Below, one piece after another: positions 1,229 to 28,551 of a stretch of DNA of 29,596 nucleotides (position 1 is the first letter of the stretch; each line of letters starts with the position of its first letter). The DNA lies in IMG/VR virus record IMGVR_UViG_3300035179_000050, positions 1 through 29,596 of that record; one strand, given 5' to 3'. Source of the stretch: a virus. Both the position numbers and the translations under genes were made by a program. The notes beneath the pieces were generated by a model that saw only the letters and a program-made list of their open reading frames with translations, was not told the DNA's origin and ran no database searches.

Positions 1229-1657
1229 CTAGGTCTTCGAGATGTCCTCGAAGTCGAAGTCCCATGACCACATCGCGAAACCTTCAGGCGAGTCAACCGT
1301 CAACGCTGCGTCGCCGGTGCACTTCTTCAGTGTGATGATCGAATTGGTTTTCTTGTTCTTCAGCTGCACATACAGGGGCGTCACGTCTGACTGCTCGAAC
1401 ATGCCGAAAGCGGTTAGAACATCGGCGGATCCGCCTGCTGCGGTTTCATCGTACCAACCGCTTGCGGAGCCCGAGTAGTCCAAGAGACCCACGCTGACTT
1501 CCTGAAGACGTGAGCCGAGCCCGACGCCGCTCTTCTTGCGGCCCTGGCCGGTCTTGGTATTGATGCTTTCCCAGCGCGATAGCGCCGGTGCATTGGCGAG
1601 GCCGCCCTCAGTGGTCGCGAGGCGGAGTTCGTAGTCTTTGCCGAGATACTTGGTCAT
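1229..1657 (-). CDS. Major tail (tube) protein
   Basis: 142 residues. The start MTKYLGKDYELRL, a central 'SVGLLDYSGSASGWYDE' and a later 'ADVLTAFGMFEQSDVTPLYVQL' fit the tail tube fold, where a strand-rich barrel with a long loop and one helix polymerises into hexameric rings. Length is short but within the range for simple siphovirus tube proteins. It lies between the tail terminator side and the chaperone, the standard position. GGAGCTGAG precedes the ATG. The acidic end (DFDFEDISKT) is probably on the ring surface. Family assignment rests on composition and synteny. Confidence 0.75.
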   Translation of the reverse strand: MTKYLGKDYELRLATTEGGLANAPALSRWESINTKTGQGRKKSGVGLGSRLQEVSVGLLDYSGSASGWYDETAAGGSADVLTAFGMFEQSDVTPLYVQLKNKKTNSIITLKKCTGDAALTVDSPEGFAMWSWDFDFEDISKT

Positions 1658-1672
1658 TCTTGCTCAGCTCCG

Positions 1673-1936
1673 TTAAGTTCCGTAGGCGAAGCCAACGACT
1701 GGCACATCTGTAGTTGCGGCTTGAGTCACGGTGACAACGTTTGTCGCTTCTGTACAGGTGACATCTGCACCGTCAGATTTCTTGCAAAGTTTCACGTAGA
1801 GTATGTCTGCCAGGTCTCCTAGAACGATTGTATTGTCTGTGCTGACGATTGCTTCGAAGGTGATGTACTTCTTCTCCGTGGCTGCGGTGACGACTGTCTG
1901 CTTCGATGAGGTCACGGTTTCTGTTCTTTCTACCAT
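1673..1936 (-). CDS. Small beta-rich tail-region protein
   Basis: 87 residues, rich in Thr, Val and Ala with alternating hydrophobic pattern (TVTSSKQTVVTAATEKKYITFEA is split by loops), consistent with an all-beta small domain. GGAGATGG lies just before the ATG. It sits between the tail terminator and the major tail protein. Two cysteines (KLCKK, VTCTE) could form a pair. No family recognised. It could be a small virion decoration or an accessory tail-tube component; the place in the order favours the tail. Confidence 0.7.
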   Translation of the reverse strand: MVERTETVTSSKQTVVTAATEKKYITFEAIVSTDNTIVLGDLADILYVKLCKKSDGADVTCTEATNVVTVTQAATTDVPVVGFAYGT

Positions 1937-2013
1937 TTTTCCATCTCCTACTTTATTTCATCAAAGCCCCCGACTCGAAGCCGTTAGGGCCATGACCCTG
2001 AGAAACCACACCG

Positions 2014-2451
2014 CTACGCCACGGCGCGGTACATGATGAAGCCGAAGTCCATTCGGACCCGGCATTCCCGAGCGAACTCATTCTGCGGGGCCACATCGGA
2101 ATCGTCTGACTTCTCCACGTTCTCGATACCATACATGGAGCATAAGGTGGCCTCATGGTCCACGATGGTTTGTTCTACCTTGTCAGCGACCGCATCACAT
2201 TCGACTTTGTCACTATGATAGCAGTCGATCTGGATCCGATGGCGCTCCTCCAAGGCACGCAGACTGCTGAACTCTTGGAGACCGATAGCGCCGCTTCGGC
2301 TGCCGCCACTCACAAGAGTCAGGACAACGCTGGGCACCGGGGCGCCCTCACCAAGCGGCAAGTCCCGAAACACTGGAACACCAAGCGAGGCAGCGTCTAG
2401 GATGGCTTTGAATGCGTCTTTAGCATCACGACGTGGGTAAGTTGATGGCAT
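2014..2451 (-). CDS. Probable tail terminator (tail completion) protein
   Basis: 145 residues. The N-terminal helix (DAKDAFKAILDAA), then 'VPVFRDLPLGEGAPVPSVVLTLVSGG', a mid section 'RIQIDCYHSDKVECDAVADKVEQTI' and a final strand 'RVRMDFGFIMYRA' fit the alpha/beta tail terminator fold of the lambda gpU / DUF3168-like group. In that fold a helix pair packs on a sheet and the protein forms a hexameric ring capping the tube. It lies between the HK97 gp10-like gene and the tail tube gene, as expected. Similarity was judged by eye. Confidence 0.7.
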   Translation of the reverse strand: MPSTYPRRDAKDAFKAILDAASLGVPVFRDLPLGEGAPVPSVVLTLVSGGSRSGAIGLQEFSSLRALEERHRIQIDCYHSDKVECDAVADKVEQTIVDHEATLCSMYGIENVEKSDDSDVAPQNEFARECRVRMDFGFIMYRAVA

Positions 2452-2478
2452 ACTCTTCTATCATCCTCACGCTTTTCC

Positions 2479-2844
2479 TCAGACATCCAGCGCGTTCATC
2501 GCACCGACAAGAAGGGCATCCAGGATCCTCTGTGAAAACGCGTCTAAGGTCGGGCGAATGTGGGGCGTGCCAAGTTGGAATCTTGTGCCGAATTCCTGGT
2601 ACCCTCCGTAATCCACGGCGTTACCAAACTCCAGTTCGAACCCGCTCGCCCGCGCATAGATGCTGTCTCTCAATGCACCCGTTTCGACAGGCGCAAGGGG
2701 TCGCGCAAAAACAATCATCTCTGAGCCGACAGCATCGAATTCCTTCTCCACATCAGGCTCGATATTTTTGACGAAAGCCCGAAGTTTCGGCGTGACCGTA
2801 TCCGCTACGATCTTGCATGACCAGGACGGCATATCCAGGCTCAC
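2479..2844 (-). CDS. HK97 gp10-like head-tail/tail component
   Basis: 121 residues. It shows the family signature 'APVETGALRDSI' (about residues 51-62), followed by 'Y..YQEFGTRFQLGTPHIRPTLD' (about 79-102) and a C-terminal helix. The HK97 gp10 family (Pfam HK97-gp10_like) is a small head-tail connection or tail-completion protein found in most siphoviruses. Its ATG overlaps the previous stop as ATGA (2841-2844), so it is coupled to the connector gene. Length matches the family. Confidence 0.9.
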   Translation of the reverse strand: MSLDMPSWSCKIVADTVTPKLRAFVKNIEPDVEKEFDAVGSEMIVFARPLAPVETGALRDSIYARASGFELEFGNAVDYGGYQEFGTRFQLGTPHIRPTLDAFSQRILDALLVGAMNALDV

Positions 2845-7112: not shown

Positions 7113-8573
7113 TCACGCGGGGTCGCGTGGGCCTCGTATATCTCCTCGACGCAGGTTCCGAAAGAAATCTAGCAGTGATCTCCCTGGCGGCTCCTGAAGG
7201 GCTTCATCTGCAGACATTCTAGCAACTGGCGGGGCTCCAGGTGTGGCTGGCGGCAGAAGGATCTGCCCATCTAGTTTGCCGCCTGTGACTTCGCTGAGCG
7301 TCTTCAGGTTGCGTTTCGCTCGGACTTCATCGATGAGCATGTACTTCAATTCGCTGGCGGCAGCTTGTGCATCCGCAACTTTGGCAGCGTTCTGGGCCGT
7401 GGTGTCTAGTTCGAAGCTGCTAGCCCACGTAATCCCGTAATCCACATTCGGAGTGAGTTGGCCGATCTCCATGAGTTTGTCGATTAGCGGACCGACCGTT
7501 TGGGACTCGTACAGCTTCTGCTGATCGCTCACGTACTTGTAGTATTCGCGCTGGTTGACTTCGCTGCCCGTGACTGCGCCCGCTTCGGTGCCCTCGAGCT
7601 TGGTCTTCGGAATTCCTGATCCCATGCTGATGCTGCGGAGGATTGGGCTTGTGTAGTCTTCAGGGCTTGGGACTCTGCCTTGGACTCCAAGCATCTCGAG
7701 TTTCTTGTCATCTGGCAGGCCGATGAATGTGCGGACATTCGGGTCGCCAAGCGACGCAAAGAATGTGTCAATCTGTTCTTTGGTGTAGTCCTTTGGGAGT
7801 GTGAAGACCATGAGGCCAGCCGTTCGCCAGTAAACCTGTCCTGCTGCCCATCGCATGTTGCGGTAGACGGTCATGTCATCCCAAACGGTTTCGAGAACGG
7901 GAATTCCTGCCCAGGGGTGCTCGTCTAGGCGCGTGGCCACATGTAGTACGCGTGAGTAGTGAACCTTGAAGCTCTTTCCTTTGCCTCGGTTGATGTTGTA
8001 CATCACCGGCAAGCCGAAGCGGGGGCTTTCAGAGCTCTCATCCTCAGCCTCCACAGTGACGGCTCGGGGGCTGTAGGTGGCCAGGTGATCGATCTCACTG
8101 GCATTCTGGACAGGCGTCTCAAGCCCCGCCATGTCTTTGAAGCCGAGAATGATGATGCTCCACCCGTAGCGACGCTCGTATTGGGCTGCACGTATGAGGA
8201 TGAATTTCGCGTTAAGCTTCTCAAGCAGGGTCTGCGTGGACTCATCAAGAGTCTTGCCAGCGTCAGGCGCCTGCTCAGCCTTCGCGATCGCTTGAACTGT
8301 GAACCATTTGTCGAAGATGTCCTCAGCGACGTCCATGACGAGTTTCTTAGCTACGGGTTCCCGGCGGACTGCGAATGTGAGCGCTTGCGGAGTGATCGTT
8401 TCGCCGAATTTGCCGCCCTTCGCGAGCGATGTGCGAGGTATGTCAATGGCTGACCCATAGCCGGTGATCATTGAGTCAGCGGATGCTTTGGTTCCGACCT
8501 TGGCTTGTGATGCATCCGATGCGGGTTTGACATTAGGCACTTTTGCGAGATTGATTCTTTTCTTCATGCTCAT
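7113..8573 (-). CDS. Portal protein (DUF1073-type)
   Basis: 486 residues, a usual portal length. The N-terminal basic arm is followed by 'REPVAKKLVMDVAEDIFDKWF', 'AAQYERRYGWSIIILGF', 'SRVLHVAT' and a C-terminal 'SMGSGIPKTKLEGTEAGA' and 'QREYYKYVSDQQ', which match the DUF1073 portal family (cf. 'GIP.t.l.G.s.aG.n.tg..d...Yy'). The portal forms the dodecameric DNA gate of the head and contacts the terminase. It overlaps the terminase stop/start by 4 bases (8570-8573), consistent with a single late transcript. The C-terminus is Pro/Arg-rich. Confidence 0.88.
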   Translation of the reverse strand: MSMKKRINLAKVPNVKPASDASQAKVGTKASADSMITGYGSAIDIPRTSLAKGGKFGETITPQALTFAVRREPVAKKLVMDVAEDIFDKWFTVQAIAKAEQAPDAGKTLDESTQTLLEKLNAKFILIRAAQYERRYGWSIIILGFKDMAGLETPVQNASEIDHLATYSPRAVTVEAEDESSESPRFGLPVMYNINRGKGKSFKVHYSRVLHVATRLDEHPWAGIPVLETVWDDMTVYRNMRWAAGQVYWRTAGLMVFTLPKDYTKEQIDTFFASLGDPNVRTFIGLPDDKKLEMLGVQGRVPSPEDYTSPILRSISMGSGIPKTKLEGTEAGAVTGSEVNQREYYKYVSDQQKLYESQTVGPLIDKLMEIGQLTPNVDYGITWASSFELDTTAQNAAKVADAQAAASELKYMLIDEVRAKRNLKTLSEVTGGKLDGQILLPPATPGAPPVARMSADEALQEPPGRSLLDFFRNLRRGDIRGPRDPA

Positions 8574-9925: not shown

Positions 9926-10331
9926 CTAACCTCTCTTCCGCTGGAGTTTGTTCAAACAGGTTCTTCCAGTTCTGCACAGAGTCGAGCGTGGTCTGTTGAA
10001 TGACTTGCACATTCTGTTGGATGCCAGGATGCGGTATCAGGATCCTGATCTGGTTGGCGAGGATTCCGTTTATGGCACCGAGGGTGCGCCCGTCCACTTT
10101 CCGGTCGAAAGCCAACTGCACTAGCTGATGGTTGAGCGCCTTGACCCCTGCGACATCATCTATCTTGTACTCGAGAGTGATTGGTTCGGCTGCTCGCTGC
10201 ATCGCCTTGATCTGCATGGCCACGAAGGCTTGCTTGAGGTCGACCTTCGGTTTTGTCTCTTTGGGCGTATCCCCTATCGTCCCTTGGGGGTTCGGTTTAT
10301 TGGAGGGGTTCTTCCTAGGCTTCTTAGGCAA
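9867..10331 (-). CDS. Probable terminase small subunit
   Basis: 154 residues. A Pro/Lys-rich flexible N-terminus (about 1-28) precedes a helical body: 'KQAFVAMQIKAMQRAA', 'GVKALNHQLVQLAFD', 'TLGAINGILANQIRIL' and 'PAEERLVVARFIKRLAE'. It directly precedes and overlaps TerL by 59 bases, which is where the small subunit belongs. No clear helix-turn-helix signature can be named by eye. It would recognise the packaging site and regulate TerL. Confidence 0.65.
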   Translation of the reverse strand: MPKKPRKNPSNKPNPQGTIGDTPKETKPKVDLKQAFVAMQIKAMQRAAEPITLEYKIDDVAGVKALNHQLVQLAFDRKVDGRTLGAINGILANQIRILIPHPGIQQNVQVIQQTTLDSVQNWKNLFEQTPAEERLVVARFIKRLAECKVSPSTS

Positions 10332-11589
10332 CCTGTAGCACCTGCTGTGGCAACGGATAGTTCGCGATGATCAAGTGGCCGATCTTGTGACGTTCTCCCC
10401 CTATGATCTTCTCGACCGACTGAAAGGTCTCCGTGAGGATCATGCCATAGTCATGGAAGAGGCGCCGTACATCCGGGTGGTCTCCGGTGGTCATAAGCCA
10501 CTTGCCCTTGCATCCCTGAAGCGTCTTGAGCACCCTCTCATGATCTGCAAGCGTGAAGATGCCCATGCGGTACTCTTCCGCGTCCAGGTACGGTGGATCC
10601 AGGTAGAAGAATGTGTCAGGCGTGTCCCTGTTCTTGATGACGCGTTCGAAGTCTAGGTGGTCAATTTCAACCATCTTGAGGCGCTCGTGGATGGATCTGA
10701 TGCCTGCGAGGCCGTTCCACATGCTTTCGGGGCGCTTCCGGTCAGTCGTCTCGCTGAACGCCCAGCCCTTGTACGGGTGAGCTGCGAAGCTGGAACGCAT
10801 CAGATACCAGAAGTGTAGAGCTCGCTCCACCGGATCCTGGGGGGCCTTGCCGTCCTTGAGATCTGTTTTCCAGCGTTCATTGAGCTCGCGACTGTAGAGG
10901 AGGAATTCCGCCCTCTTCAGGAACGCGTCTGGTTTGTCTCGAACCGTCTCGAAGAGGTTCACGACTTCGCCGTCTATGTCGTTGTAGACTTCAATGTTGC
11001 TAGGCGGCTTGTTCAGCAGGAGCGCAGCGCCTCCACCGAAGACTTCCACATACGCGGTGTGGTCAGGGATCAGAGGGATGAGACGCGGGACGAGGTTTTG
11101 TTTGCCACCCATGTATGGCAGGAGGCTGAGACGGGGGCCGTTCGATTCCGCCCTCTCGAGATCAGGGGAGGCTATGTTGGCGATGATTCTATCGATCTCT
11201 CCCTGGTCGAAGCCTGTGAGCTCACCCAGGCCGGCGCTGTCAAGTTCCTTGAGGATTTCAGCCAGTTTGTCGTTGTCCCAGTCACCGCTGATCCTGTTCA
11301 GAGCCAAGTTGAGGGCTTTCATGTCACGTTCTTTCGTGATGTCTACGCGCACAATGGGGACCCTGGCAAAGCCGAGTTCGAGTGCATCCTCGAGGCGTTG
11401 GTGGCCACCGATCACCAAGTTGTCACGGTGTCTGACGATGAATGGGTCCACGATGCCGAATCGTCTCATGCTGTTCTTGAGTTTCTCGTGCTCCTCAGGG
11501 GACATGGTGCGCGGGTTGCTCTTCCAGGGCTTCAGTGTGTGTGGATCCACATACTCAATCCTGAGATGGCGTGATGGTTTCGGCGTCAA
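10324..11589 (-). CDS. ParB-like domain fused to Dam-type (D12) adenine DNA methyltransferase
   Basis: 421 residues from a TTG at 11587-11589, which has GAAGGAT eight bases upstream; a longer frame to 11640 would overlap the previous gene. Residues about 10-90 are a ParB/sulfiredoxin-type domain (NPRTMSPEEHEKLKNSM, then 'VIGGHQRLEDALELG'). After a linker comes a D12-class methyltransferase: 'LPYMGGKQNLVPRLIPLIP', SAM motif 'AYVEVFGGGAAL', and catalytic 'YLDPPY' (DPPY), with 'WLMTTGDHPDVRRLF'. It should methylate adenine N6, with the ParB part possibly guiding DNA contact. Likely use: escaping host restriction or marking packaging DNA. Confidence 0.88.
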   Translation of the reverse strand: MTPKPSRHLRIEYVDPHTLKPWKSNPRTMSPEEHEKLKNSMRRFGIVDPFIVRHRDNLVIGGHQRLEDALELGFARVPIVRVDITKERDMKALNLALNRISGDWDNDKLAEILKELDSAGLGELTGFDQGEIDRIIANIASPDLERAESNGPRLSLLPYMGGKQNLVPRLIPLIPDHTAYVEVFGGGAALLLNKPPSNIEVYNDIDGEVVNLFETVRDKPDAFLKRAEFLLYSRELNERWKTDLKDGKAPQDPVERALHFWYLMRSSFAAHPYKGWAFSETTDRKRPESMWNGLAGIRSIHERLKMVEIDHLDFERVIKNRDTPDTFFYLDPPYLDAEEYRMGIFTLADHERVLKTLQGCKGKWLMTTGDHPDVRRLFHDYGMILTETFQSVEKIIGGERHKIGHLIIANYPLPQQVLQVA

Positions 11590-11593
11590 ATGA

Positions 11594-11914
11594 TTATCCT
11601 TCCGAATGGTGCCATACGGGTAAGCTGTGCGACAAAGCAACCAGGTAGATGCCGGTGGCCACGATTGTCTGCAGGTTGATTGTGTGAGTCCCCAAGGCTA
11701 TTTGTGGCGAGGCTTCGATGATGCTGGGCCAGATCCTATACGTTATTTCGTCAAGGATGATTACTAGCAGCGGCGCCAAGTAGCAGACTAAAAGCAGGTG
11801 CCCACGTAGACGCATCCACCTGAGCCTTTTCCTACTTGTGCTTTCTTCAATCTGCATTCGGAGTCGTTTGATCTCGTCCTGAGCCTCACGCAGCTCTTGC
11901 CTCTTTGCGGTCAA
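11594..11914 (-). CDS. Small membrane protein with N-terminal coiled coil
   Basis: 106 residues from TTG at 11912-11914, which overlaps the upstream stop as TTGA and follows GAGGATAACCA. Residues 1-30 are a charged helix (ELREAQDEIKRLRMQIEES), then two hydrophobic segments: 'HLLLVCYLAPLLVIIL' (about 39-54) and 'INLQTIVATGIYLVALSHSL' (about 79-98). It could sit in the host membrane with both ends inside. No family is recognised. A holin-like role is possible but unsupported beyond size and topology. Confidence 0.65.
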   Translation of the reverse strand: MTAKRQELREAQDEIKRLRMQIEESTSRKRLRWMRLRGHLLLVCYLAPLLVIILDEITYRIWPSIIEASPQIALGTHTINLQTIVATGIYLVALSHSLPVWHHSEG

Positions 11915-22163: not shown

Positions 22164-24146
22164 TCACGCGACCTCTTTCTGTCTGACGCGATCGCGGAAT
22201 TCGGGTGACTCTGAATATTGCCACTGTGCGGGCGTGCCTTGCCGGTCGAGGATGCCCTTCGAGACCAACATGGCCAGAGCTTTTCCTACGCTCTCCCTGT
22301 TTCCTCCCGAATCGCTGACATCGTATCTTCTAACGAGCTCCGTGACAACGGTGCCGAGTCGCTTCGGTTCCTTGAAGAATCCGTCAACGCCACGAGCGAG
22401 AATCTTGCCTTCCCAGGTGGACTCCTCAGCGTCGAACTTCTCAGTGTTCGCGATGACATCGAGACTCGTCAGCGTCCGGCGGAGCGTAGCCTCAACCGGG
22501 ATGACCGTCCTGCTATTCGCGGGAACACTCGTTTCGCTTGTCCCGCGCGTTCCGCTTGGAACACTTGTTTCGCGCGTTTCGCTTACTCCGCTCAGTTGCC
22601 GGCTAGTTTCAATCTTTTCCTGATGTTCCGCGTCGGCTGCTTCGGCCATGGCTTGACTGGAACGCTTGAACATGTCACGCTCCATGGTCACGCTCCGAAG
22701 TTCCTTGGTGAGACGCCCGATCTCAGCTGACGCTTGGTCCAGAAGGGTGCCCTTGTGAGCGGCTAAGGCCTTGACGTCCTGCACCTCAGAACGCAGTGTC
22801 TCGCTCTCCTTGGCTTCGGCTTGTGCTTCCTCGGTGACCGGGAACAGTTTTGCGAGTCTGCTGATGTACCGGCCTCCCTGATTCTCTATGAGCTTCGGTA
22901 TCTTACGATTGATATCATACGTGAAGTCGGGCACACTCTTCGGTTTGATCTCGAGGAAGAGGCTTGCGTGCTCGGAATCCTGAGGGCCTTTGGTCTCTAG
23001 GAGCTCTACGAACGCCCGCTGCTTCGCCTTCAGCTTCTCAAGGTTCTTCTGTACGAGCGGATGCGACAGTAGATCGCTGACTCCACCCTTCATTGTTGCG
23101 TGCCGGACTGCATCGTCCAGTTTGCGTTGGAGATCCGCTATCTTCGTTTCATACTTGGCCTCGAAACGGTGCGCGGCCGTGTCACGTTCCTTCTTGACTC
23201 TGTCGAGTCGCGCCTGCCATTGGGCCTCGAACTTGACTTTGATGCGATCCTCAATCTCTCGGACATGTGGAATCTCGGGCGCTAGTTTCTCTCGAGTGAT
23301 GGCTGGGAGTTTCTGTGCGAGTTGTGCGATGACGTCAGCCAGTTCCTTGGGGGCAGGCGGCACCACTTCTGGTGTCTCGCCCACGTGTTTGGTCACAATT
23401 GGTCCGACATGGACCACGACCGGCTTAGCGACAAAGTCACCGGAGATATAGAACTCGCCCCTCTCGAATGTGGCAAGTCTCGCGGTGACGTCCTCTGGGA
23501 TCCTTGCGAACTTGTGGACCACTTCTTTGTCAGGGTCCCAGTCGAGTTGTCCGATTGCTTTGCTGCGGCATAGCGCGATCACGCCCTTGGCCACAGACGG
23601 TGGTCGTTGTGTGACCACGATGAGGCCCACGCCTCGCTTCCGACCTTTCTTGGCAAGCTTCATCATGGCCGGGCCGCAGAGGGACTTGGCGAAATTGTGT
23701 TCCGGCGCGAGCTCGTCAGCCTCCTCAGCTATGACCAAGTAGGGCTTGCGTTGCGTGGTCTCGACCGCTAGGAATCGGTCGACGAATCGCTGAACGAACT
23801 CTTGGAAGGTAGCGTCGTCTAGGTTGATGTCGCTGCCGTCGATGATGACACTGAGGTCGTCGGCCAGCGTTTGATCGGCCAAAAATTCCGCTGCCTCTGG
23901 CACCAAGGGCACATCTCTGCCGATGATCAGGAAGGGAAACTTCTCGCGGAGGCTTGCGTACTCTCCCTCAACGTCGATTATGATCAGACCTGCTTTGCCG
24001 AACGCCTGCTCCGTGATGCGTCGACAGGTGTGGCTCTTCCCGGCGCCACTGGTGGAACAGAGAAATGTCCGCCCGGTCACAAGTTCCTGCAGGTCAAGTT
24101 CAACGTTGGCGCCCTTCGCGGTCTGGCCGAGAAGAACCCCGGTCAT
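22164..24146 (-). CDS. HerA/FtsK-like (DUF87) ATPase with long coiled coil
   Basis: 660 residues. N-terminal ATPase: Walker A 'STSGAGKSHT' (31-40), 'LIIIDVEGEYASL' (54-66) typical of HerA/DUF87 proteins, Walker B 'YLVIAEEADE' (136-145), and 'LIVVTQRPPSVAKGVI' (175-190). After residue about 270 comes a long charged helical region with repeated Glu/Lys/Arg heptads and a C-terminal winged-helix-like part (EEST... to 'LAMLVSKGILDRQGTPAQW'). HerA works with NurA in archaeal end resection, or as a DNA pump in viruses. TerL is present too, so packaging is less likely. It is coupled to its neighbours by ATGA. Confidence 0.85.
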   Translation of the reverse strand: MTGVLLGQTAKGANVELDLQELVTGRTFLCSTSGAGKSHTCRRITEQAFGKAGLIIIDVEGEYASLREKFPFLIIGRDVPLVPEAAEFLADQTLADDLSVIIDGSDINLDDATFQEFVQRFVDRFLAVETTQRKPYLVIAEEADELAPEHNFAKSLCGPAMMKLAKKGRKRGVGLIVVTQRPPSVAKGVIALCRSKAIGQLDWDPDKEVVHKFARIPEDVTARLATFERGEFYISGDFVAKPVVVHVGPIVTKHVGETPEVVPPAPKELADVIAQLAQKLPAITREKLAPEIPHVREIEDRIKVKFEAQWQARLDRVKKERDTAAHRFEAKYETKIADLQRKLDDAVRHATMKGGVSDLLSHPLVQKNLEKLKAKQRAFVELLETKGPQDSEHASLFLEIKPKSVPDFTYDINRKIPKLIENQGGRYISRLAKLFPVTEEAQAEAKESETLRSEVQDVKALAAHKGTLLDQASAEIGRLTKELRSVTMERDMFKRSSQAMAEAADAEHQEKIETSRQLSGVSETRETSVPSGTRGTSETSVPANSRTVIPVEATLRRTLTSLDVIANTEKFDAEESTWEGKILARGVDGFFKEPKRLGTVVTELVRRYDVSDSGGNRESVGKALAMLVSKGILDRQGTPAQWQYSESPEFRDRVRQKEVA

Positions 24147-26085: not shown

Positions 26086-26247
26086 CTACGCCGGAACCTC
26101 CGTTCTCGGTTGCGCTGGGCAATGCTGCTTGTGTTCATCTTTCGCTTTGCGAACGGCACCTGGTTTGTATGCCGTGTCCCGGTAGATTTCTTGGTTGCAG
26201 CGTTCACAGGCCAGAATGACCGGCTCGACGGTCATCGTGCCGGTCAT
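26086..26247 (-). CDS. Zinc-finger mini-protein, 53 residues
   Basis: ATG at 26245-26247 overlaps the RHH stop as ATGA; a second in-frame ATG at 26233-26235 lies inside a 12-base tandem duplication. Sequence includes 'LACERCNQEIYRDTAY' and 'AKDEHKQHCPAQ', giving C-x2-C and a later H-x3-H-C, a possible zinc finger. The stop TAG is followed immediately by the ATG of the next gene. Short but well framed. Confidence 0.6.
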   Translation of the reverse strand: MTGTMTVEPVILACERCNQEIYRDTAYKPGAVRKAKDEHKQHCPAQPRTEVPA

Positions 26248-26426
26248 CGTGCCGGAACCTCCACGGTTTGGCGCTCATGGAGGAGAAATCTTCGGATCGC
26301 TTCTTCCGTGACCTGTGAGACGCTTCGGTATTTCTTCAGCCCGAGTTGGTCACGCTTCTCTTTGACCAGGCGCTTCAGTCCTGTAATCAGTTCCGTGTCA
26401 ACTCGGACGTTTCCCTGTCTCCCCAA
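26244..26426 (-). CDS. Ribbon-helix-helix repressor-like protein, minus side of divergent pair
   Basis: 60 residues from TTG at 26424-26426, with GAGG about 11 bases upstream, matching the spacing on the other side. 'GNVRVDTELITGLKRLVKEK', then 'RSVSQVTEEAIRRFLLHE' gives strand-helix-helix of the RHH fold (NVRVD strand, first helix, RSVSQVTEEAIRRF second helix). It is the first gene of the long minus operon, so it probably regulates that operon and the divergent gene. It ends with a zinc mini-gene coupled by ATGA. Confidence 0.75.
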   Translation of the reverse strand: MGRQGNVRVDTELITGLKRLVKEKRDQLGLKKYRSVSQVTEEAIRRFLLHERQTVEVPAR

Positions 26427-26520
26427 TATGCATGCTACCTCTTTGCAGCAATCTTGCAGCGGAATGACTATATAACAGTTTGCTGCACCCTTGTAGCAAA
26501 GAGGCTACATGCACATGCCC
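26423..26520. promoter_or_regulatory. Divergent TATA promoter with a large near-symmetric operator
   Basis: A TATATA at 26469-26474 is flanked on both sides by nearly the same sequence in inverted order. To the left, minus-strand reading has GCTGCAAGATTGCTGCAA, GAGG and TTG start; to the right, plus has TTTGCTGCACCCTTGTAGCAA, GAGG and ATG start. About 40 bases on each arm match in reverse with few changes, including GCATG and CCTCTTTGC. TATA-to-start distance is about 40 bases each way, with the transcription start expected about 25 bases from TATA. Repeated TTGCWGCA boxes are candidate repressor sites. Confidence 0.8.
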
Positions 26521-26688
26521 AAGAAGCAGAAGGTGAAATGGGGCAACGTTCACGTCTCGGAGGATCTGCTTGAACTCGTCGACGAGTACCTCAAAGGTGA
26601 TAGGGCAAAGAGAAGAGATCTGCACAGCAGGACGGATGTGGCCTCGGAAGCGATCAAGGAGCTCCTGAGAACCGAAGAGATCCTCTAG
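26515..26688 (+). CDS. Ribbon-helix-helix repressor-like protein, plus side of divergent pair
   Basis: 57 residues from ATG at 26515-26517 (or ATG at 26509, two codons longer), GAGG about 11 bases upstream. It starts MPKKQKVKWGNVHVSEDL, continues 'LLELVDEYLKGDRAKRRD' and 'SRTDVASEAIKELLRTEE'. The strand GNVHVSEDL, then two helices match the RHH pattern of the minus partner (GNVRVDTEL ... VTEEAIRRFL). It shares TATATA with the minus gene. The TAG stop at 26686-26688 overlaps the TAG of a convergent gene. Confidence 0.75.
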   Translation: MPKKQKVKWGNVHVSEDLLELVDEYLKGDRAKRRDLHSRTDVASEAIKELLRTEEIL

Positions 26689-26864
26689 GCCGGATTCCTG
26701 AGTCTCAGCCGAAAGTCGACAGCCGTCCCGGTTACGATGTCATCGATCAATGCATCAAGTTCAGCCTCAAGGATCGCCAAGAACCGTTCTTTTCCGCCGT
26801 GTTTGCGCGTGAACTCCCGCATGTAACTCACGGCCTCAAAGGCGCCTTCGGCTCGCGGATTCAC
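26685..26864 (-). CDS. Small protein, 59 residues, convergent with the plus RHH gene
   Basis: GTG at 26862-26864 overlaps the upstream stop as GTGA; TAG at 26685-26687 overlaps the TAG of the opposite gene (CTAG). Reads 'NPRAEGAFEAVSYMREFTRK', then 'KERFLAILEAELDALIDDIV' and 'TAVDFRLRLRNPA'. Mostly helical and charged. The tight tail-to-tail overlap suggests the two transcripts interfere. No family. Confidence 0.6.
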   Translation of the reverse strand: MNPRAEGAFEAVSYMREFTRKHGGKERFLAILEAELDALIDDIVTGTAVDFRLRLRNPA

Positions 26865-27091
26865 AGGTTGAGTCTCCTGGCGTGGCCTTCCAGGACGGCC
26901 ACGATGTAGTCCTCAGGCTTCGCGGCGCTCTCCACCGCCACAAGGAGGTTGCATATTCGCCTGTAGATCCAGTAGGGAATCATGACCTGGATATCGCCAG
27001 GCGGGTCGCAATCCACAGATCGCATACCCCCAGAAGGGGATACATACCATTCATAGCCAATGAGAGAACCACACCGTAAGGAGAGACCCAA
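26861..27091 (-). CDS. Unknown small protein, minus strand start of a short unit
   Basis: 76 residues from TTG at 27089-27091 with GGAGG 10 bases upstream. N-terminus 'GLSLRCGSLIGYEWYVSPSG', then 'RSVDCDPPGDIQVMIPYWIY' and a helix 'RRICNLLVAVESAAKPEDYI' with 'VAVLEGHARRL'. An ATG start at 27025 or 26983 would be shorter. A minus-oriented TATATATT lies at about 27168-27175, some 80 bases upstream, so a leader of about 50 bases is expected. Function unknown. Confidence 0.55.
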   Translation of the reverse strand: MGLSLRCGSLIGYEWYVSPSGGMRSVDCDPPGDIQVMIPYWIYRRICNLLVAVESAAKPEDYIVAVLEGHARRLNL

Positions 27092-27155: not shown

Positions 27156-27205
27156 TATGGCACCACAAATATATAGGGCATGGGCCATTTACCTTTGCTT
27201 GAGGA
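27156..27205 (+). promoter_or_regulatory. Promoter of the AbrB-protease operon, possibly bidirectional
   Basis: TATGGCACCA (27156-27165) lies just upstream of AAATATATAGG (27167-27177), in the position where an archaeal BRE or activator would sit. The TATA centre is about 35 bases before the TTG start; GAGGA at 27201-27205 is the ribosome site. The TATA box read on the minus strand (CCTATATATTT) could also serve the gene at 26861-27091. The TATGGCACCA motif recurs at 28498-28551. Confidence 0.6.
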
Positions 27206-27208
27206 AAA

Positions 27209-27394
27209 TTGGTTAGGTTGCAAAAACGATTCGCTTACAAGTACAAAGACAAGGAACACTACAAGCATGTCGTAACGATCCCTGAAGAGACTGTGGACCG
27301 TCTAGGCTGGAGAGAAGGAGAGGAACTGCAACAGACAGTCGATAAGGATGCGCTTGTCATACGAGGGATGAAGAAAGATGCCAAGCACAGATGA
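27209..27394 (+). CDS. AbrB/SpoVT-type DNA-binding protein
   Basis: 61 residues from TTG at 27209-27211 with GAGGA 3 to 8 bases upstream. The core 'KHVVTIPEETVDRLGWREGE' followed by 'ELQQTVDKDALVIRG' is the swapped-hairpin AbrB fold (VTIP..l...lgw..Gd.l). AbrB-type proteins dimerise and bind AT-rich operators; archaea carry many, often as antitoxin-like repressors. It overlaps the protease gene by 17 bases, so the two are translated together. Good candidate for autoregulation through the TATGGCACCA motif. Confidence 0.85.
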   Translation: MVRLQKRFAYKYKDKEHYKHVVTIPEETVDRLGWREGEELQQTVDKDALVIRGMKKDAKHR

Positions 27395-28497: not shown

Positions 28498-28551
28498 TGG
28501 TACCATAATCCTTAATTACGTCTATGGCACCATAATATCTGTGGTGCCATA
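28498..28551. repeat. Three TGGTRCCATA-type motifs, operator candidates
   Basis: TGGTACCATA (28498-28507), TATGGCACCATA (28523-28534, a near-palindrome) and TGGTGCCATA (28542-28551) lie within 54 bases, and a fourth copy (TATGGCACCA) is at 27156-27165 upstream of the AbrB gene. Spacings from start to start are about 25 and 19 bases. TATA-like AT-rich bits between them (CATAATATC) may serve the gene at 28597. Confidence 0.7.

Follow-up and report, generated by a model that had tools for sequence, protein, structure and literature searches.

A predicted self-regulating RHH repressor switch around a single bidirectional TATA box in a probable archaeal tailed virus

The mnt and arc genes of phage P22 encode proteins of the RHH fold and are associated with divergent promoters. 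Together they make up the repressor gene pair of immI, an immunity region of that phage (PMC2629481). Small RHH repressors have also been described in archaeal viruses, where AvtR (AFV6 gp29/gp30), SvtR and F55 of SSV1 occupy transcription start sites through paired sites; gp29 and gp30 of AFV6 are two RHH genes under one footprint, and F55 maintains the carrier state (PMC5569661). A TATA box that serves two directions is known from the halovirus HF2, whose bidirectional promoter T-40936 / T-40979 has one TATA box surrounded by inverted repeats, with start sites that, by name, lie 43 nt apart and an integrase module on one side (PMC8707807). In Pyrococcus furiosus, shared TATA boxes are near-symmetric, have the arrangement BRE-TATA-BRE and direct starts ~49–50 bp apart; most of these promoters give antisense RNA that the authors assumed to be non-functional (PMC6640164). 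Here we describe a locus in an IMG/VR virus record of 29,596 nucleotides (hereafter, the window), which carries the tailed-virus genes for the major head protein, portal and large terminase. An 82 bp control region between two divergent small genes, RHH-A and RHH-B, is, in our assessment of its sequence, likely to be a switch of an archaeal tailed virus in which RHH repressors control their own synthesis from one bidirectional TATA box.

The control region and its symmetry

RHH-B (26509–26688, plus strand) is a single gene for a 59-aa RHH-like protein that starts at the ATG at 26509 or at 26515, and its stop overlaps a convergent gene (26685–26864, minus strand) whose 59-aa product begins MNPRAEGAF and has no Pfam match. 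RHH-A (26244–26426, minus strand) encodes a 60-aa RHH-like protein, starts with TTG and heads a leftward early operon, overlapping the next gene of that operon via ATGA; a perfect tandem 12-bp repeat, CGGTCATCGTGC (26229–26252), lies across the end of RHH-A and the start of that gene. The operon includes a HerA-like ATPase (22164–24146, minus strand; Pfam DUF87, 1.9e-9). Elsewhere in the window, 10324–11640 encodes a ParB N-terminal domain fused to a D12-class adenine methyltransferase.

A single symmetric TATATA (26469–26474) lies midway between the divergent start codons of the two small genes. The window contains only one other TATATA, at 27170 upstream of another gene, and 26469–26474 is the sole place with a match of at least 7/8 to TTTATATA on either strand, the octamer at 26468–26475 reading CTATATAA rightward and TTATATAG leftward. 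The P. furiosus TATA box extends from −30 to −23 and is accompanied by a YR initiator (PMC6640164). Using the TATA-to-start distance from the same source, transcription starts were predicted at 26498 on the plus strand (a C/A initiator 23 bp past the TATA 8-mer) and at 26444 on the minus strand (a C/A initiator 24 bp past it); the two are 54 bp apart and mirror each other about 26471. The flanking BREs, GAATG and AAACT, are weak, each matching RRAAA at 3/5 positions by eye (consensus from PMC6640164). The three virus contigs compared below hold four TATATA in 121 kb, all ~15–40 bp upstream of a start codon. By its sequence, TATATA thus placed fits an archaeal TATA box common to both directions.

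The symmetry extends well beyond the TATA box. In an ungapped scan of the whole window that took in all odd and even axes, axis 26471 ranked first among ~59,000, with 26 of the 35 outer pairs matching (mean 8.6, sd 2.6; next best 21); the axis sits on base 26471, half a base off the centre of TATATA (26471.5). A repeat search returned the same region as inverted repeat I1, with two 35 nt arms that are 74% complementary and separated by 21 nt: the left arm (26426–26460, minus strand) contains the leader, a GAGG and boxes 1 and 2, and the right arm (26482–26516, plus strand) boxes 3 and 4, the leader, a GAGG and start codons. The gapped local score at the axis, 28, is the window maximum (next 21). 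Shuffling equalled it at axis 26471 in 2 of 5,000 trials, but 3 of 40 shuffles of the entire window produced a 28 at one axis or another, so that taken by itself this test is marginal on the scale of the window. The boxes described below are palindromic and look mirrored in either orientation, so part of the symmetry follows from them. Outside the boxes 16 of 28 pairs match, chiefly in AAAGAGG and ATGCA; the palindromic boxes are the main cause of the mirror, and the leaders contribute too. The similarity ends at the start codons of the two RHH-like genes.

A preliminary description of this region had proposed mirror-image arms around TATATA that carry TTGCTGCA-like boxes, GAGG ribosome sites and start codons at equal spacing. 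The arms are real, as the axis scan and the alignment of the arms demonstrate, and GAGG ribosome-binding sites are present on both, at 26501–26504 on the plus strand for the right gene and at 26438–26441 on the minus strand for the left gene. The spacing of the start codons is equal in a rough sense but not exactly: the left ATG (26433–26431) mirrors the ATG at 26509 yet is out of frame with RHH-A. The start of RHH-A must be the TTG at 26426–26424, the only one available to this gene, whose mirror partner, one nucleotide out of register, is the second right ATG (26515). The boxes, too, are present, but are better described as four copies of the self-palindromic TTGCWGCAA.

These putative operator boxes are arranged in pairs, two per side and 11 bp apart within each pair. 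Box 1 (TTGCAGCAA, 26443–26451) is a perfect TTGC-W-GCAA palindrome covering −7 to +2 of the predicted leftward start, and box 2 (TTGCAGCGG, 26454–26462), with two mismatches, covers −10 to −18 of the same start; box 3 (TTGCTGCAC, 26480–26488) and box 4 (TTGTAGCAA, 26491–26499), with one mismatch each, cover −18 to −10 and −7 to +2 of the predicted rightward start. The boxes therefore stand at identical offsets from both predicted starts, spanning −18 to +2, and the putative tandem sites of each pair are about one helical turn apart, as for RHH repressors. A motif-agnostic array search over all 256 palindromic 9-mers at a phase of 10–12 bp selected TTGCWGCAA, with an array score of 28/32 against a shuffle maximum of 25 (n = 1,500) and an other-window maximum of 24 (n = 720). 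The window has no other TTGCWGCAA pair at 11 bp spacing, and the box consensus is found nowhere else in it, which means that no lysogeny gene in the window carries the operator; of the window proteins that were searched, none was recognisable as an integrase. A scan for TTGCWGCAANNTTGCWGCAA returned four unrelated contigs, by estimate about the number expected by chance. A different box, GGCACCAYA, occurs three times (27159–27165, 28526–28532 (+) and 28540–28548 (−)), adjoining two rightward promoters and including the inverted pair TATGGCACCATAATATCTGTGGTGCCATAA. It looks like a candidate operator for a second regulator, which may be the product of the MazE-like gene at 27209.

The RHH-like proteins, related contigs and the host

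With the HerA-like ATPase as anchor gene, we found as relatives two virus contigs, L002 (55%) and L004 (61%; IMGVR_UViG_3300031707_000030), and a Hadesarchaea MAG contig (L008). The ATPase has a long conserved C-terminal extension that is common to L002, L004 and the MAG contig. The window, L002 and L004 form the comparative set, and in three of three contigs divergent RHH-like genes lie upstream of HerA; relatives identified through TerL did not extend to the RHH region.

The preliminary description had assigned a small RHH gene to each arm. For the right arm this is probable: RHH-B is recovered by a leave-one-out HMM with an E-value of 1.5e-4 among 4,617 ORFs, and its Smith-Waterman comparisons with the RHH proteins of L004, which pass the Pfam cut-off themselves, give z-scores of 5.0–5.3, although its own Pfam RHH_1 value is only 0.62. 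The assignment of RHH-A as an RHH protein is weaker, with a leave-one-out E-value of 0.03, no match to Pfam RHH_1 and an NCBIfam YlcI/YnfO N-terminal hit of 0.0015 that falls below the cut-off. In the ranking given by an HMM of the four L004 RHH proteins, only L004's own ORFs and three encoded by genomes of the Hadesarchaeon's phylum came ahead of the two window ORFs (E 0.41 and 0.43 among 4,617 ORFs). Single-sequence AlphaFold models, of low confidence (pLDDT 65–68), have a strand at 14–17 followed by helices in RHH-B and two helices only in RHH-A. Sequence and fold searches of the PDB returned no match for either protein, and scans of viral contigs with each of them found no relatives. The two were also proposed to be copies of one repressor gene, inverted and duplicated. 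RHH-A and RHH-B have no BLASTP match to each other and a Smith-Waterman z of 4.3, so that gene duplication is not established in the window, and the mirror stops at the start codons; as judged from sequence, the promoter/operator arms could have arisen by inverted duplication or by convergence onto one operator.

The L002 contig keeps the gene order of the window, namely the MNPRAEGAF gene, the convergent RHH gene, the intergenic region, the divergent RHH gene and HerA. The two RHH proteins encoded there share 53% identity (E 8e-16), which makes an inverted gene duplication clear in L002; a viral-contig scan with this pair found nothing beyond L002 itself. The intergenic region contains two separate TATA-like elements, so a single TATA is not universal. 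Paired GTGCG half-sites occur at only four places in 45 kb of L002: three belong to the RHH intergenic region, lying within it or at its edge, and the fourth precedes an integrase. This last pair (2759–2771) stands beside the TATA-like TTATTATAG, upstream of the integrase-like gene (1595–2725, minus strand), which was recognised by PHROG at 4.9e-4. The MNPRAEGAF protein, our synteny anchor, is 75% identical between L002 and the window and the stop of its gene overlaps the convergent RHH stop in both, whereas the RHH genes beside it and the operators are dissimilar. By eye, the small genes that follow RHH-A in the window and its counterpart in L002 look alike, a similarity that was rejected at z 0.2.

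In L004 a 76-bp interval with RHH genes on both sides has a central TATATA (7843–7848) that is unique in ~46 kb. Three TTRCCTAG boxes, two of them 11 bp apart, are present, with none elsewhere in the 22-kb locus. In all, four RHH genes (7412–8236) are placed two on each side of the one TATATA, with a ParB-like gene behind the leftward pair. The same symmetric design, sought in these related contigs, thus recurs as a single TATATA in L004 but not as a strong mirror, and L002, with two TATA boxes, departs from it. That one TATA box is placed to serve both directions, as had been suggested for the window, is borne out at the sequence level by the geometry of the interval, the rarity of TATATA and the layout of L004.

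One alternative is an ordinary pair of promoters placed back to back, of which only one is strong or uses TATATA, the mirror being the product of palindromic boxes together with the usual GAGG and ATG. Palindromic boxes look mirrored in any array, the whole-window gapped test is marginal, and L002 works with two TATA boxes. Against this stand the 16/28 match outside the boxes, the status of TATATA as the interval's only TATA-like octamer at 7/8, the same single TATATA in L004 and the little room that an 82 bp intergenic space affords, and we regard such an ordinary pair as rather unlikely.

RHH proteins of the ParG/omega type are centromere-binding proteins that recognise tandem short repeats. 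If the RHH proteins of the window were of this kind, the boxes would be the centromere of a plasmid-like virus, and autoregulation a by-product of partition or maintenance. Tandem short repeats are known targets of such proteins, and a ParB-like gene comes after the leftward RHH genes of L004; but no ParA- or ParB-like gene adjoins the RHH genes in the window or in L002, the boxes are only four and sit on the predicted starts, and the L002 sites recur at the integrase promoter, all of which makes a partition locus improbable.

As for the host, the HerA homologue in the Hadesarchaea MAG contig, which may itself be a mis-binned viral fragment, is the main hint that it is archaeal. A search of 28 genomes from the Hadesarchaeon's phylum did not recover the MNPRAEGAF gene, an absence that is weak evidence. 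The virus is, on the strength of its sequence relationships, probably an archaeal tailed virus. A bacterial virus, in which TATATA would be a symmetric −10 element with divergent starts ~18 bp apart, is very improbable: symmetric −10 elements do make bidirectional promoters in bacteria (PMC10268837) and the host assignment is indirect, but no sigma-70-type promoter was found in 26200–26900, the HerA relatives include an archaeal MAG contig, and in both L002 and L004 TATA elements of archaeal type precede the starts by the expected distance. There is only the faintest chance that a DNA or RNA hairpin (a replication origin, a recombination or an attachment site), not a promoter, was selected, since although the single strand folds at −21.8 kcal/mol (z −4.6), any inverted repeat would give such a structure, the arms hold GAGG and start codons, no Rfam match was found, each predicted transcript would hold one arm only, and L004 retains TATATA and boxes without a strong mirror.

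A model for the switch

In the reading that we prefer, the symmetric TATATA would allow TBP/TFB and the RNA polymerase of the host to assemble in either orientation. The leftward transcript, from ~26444, would cover RHH-A together with the rest of the early operon, such as the genes for the HerA-like ATPase and a methyltransferase, and the rightward transcript, from ~26498, would cover RHH-B alone and meet the convergent MNPRAEGAF gene. One or both RHH proteins, as dimers, would bind the paired TTGCWGCAA boxes; with the boxes lying over −18 to +2 of each start, RNA polymerase would be blocked and the TATA box left untouched. The outcome would be an autoregulated two-way switch with a logic like that of P22 mnt/arc. 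The archaeal host, the start sites, the pairing of protein with box, repression and the role in lysogeny are parts of this model that we infer. Since the leftward transcript would lead into the early operon and the rightward one would carry RHH-B alone, the transcript layout suggests, by analogy, that RHH-B is the repressor and RHH-A has a lytic role. A divergent RHH-gene switch region is conserved upstream of the HerA operon in the three virus contigs. Of the two functions put forward earlier, a lysis/lysogeny role is plausible, if indirectly so, through the half-sites at the L002 integrase promoter; nothing points specifically to copy-number control.

A stronger version of the model is speculative, and we hold it to be possible but unlikely. 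Because one TATA box and two mirrored operator pairs would serve both directions, pre-initiation complexes of opposite orientation would exclude each other, and an RHH protein bound on one side would both repress that side and send the polymerase to the other. TBP orientation would then act as a toggle, and the 90-bp mirror would suffice as a bistable switch between lysis and lysogeny. Like the immunity regions of phages, it would have evolved anew, with different operators, in each virus lineage. Turnover of immunity regions in archaeal viruses is in itself suggested by the sequences, in that the neighbouring gene is conserved (75% identity) versus RHH genes and operators that are unalike.

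Comparison with described systems

Bidirectional archaeal promoters have mostly been treated as antisense-RNA noise. Two related virus contigs seem instead to make use of the symmetry, with one TATA between repressor-like genes and operator boxes on both sides, and, if this is true, the arrangement would be among the smallest genetic switches known in archaeal viruses. Within the set, L004 resembles the window in its divergent RHH genes, central TATATA, repeated boxes with an 11-bp-spaced pair and downstream HerA operon, and differs in its TTRCCTAG boxes, in having three rather than four of them, in its mirror, which is not a strong one, and in its four RHH genes.

The HF2 promoter is similar in belonging to a tailed archaeal virus (for the window, we infer this host and the use of the TATA box in two directions) and in combining one two-way TATA with inverted repeats, but no RHH genes are described there, and the genes served and the repeats differ. 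Compared with the shared promoters of P. furiosus, both directions in the window lead to genes, the BREs are weak and the starts are predicted ones. The immI region of P22 differs in its bacterial sigma-70 promoters, its antirepressor and its antisense RNA, and has no shared TATA. The viruses of AvtR, SvtR and F55 differ in being filamentous, rod-shaped or spindle-shaped, and neither a single shared TATA nor a mirror array is described for these repressors in the review consulted (PMC5569661). Shared-TATA promoters and RHH repressors of archaeal viruses are thus already known, each in its own right; what is new, within the literature searched, is the combination of one TATA box with mirrored operator pairs and an RHH-like gene on each side.
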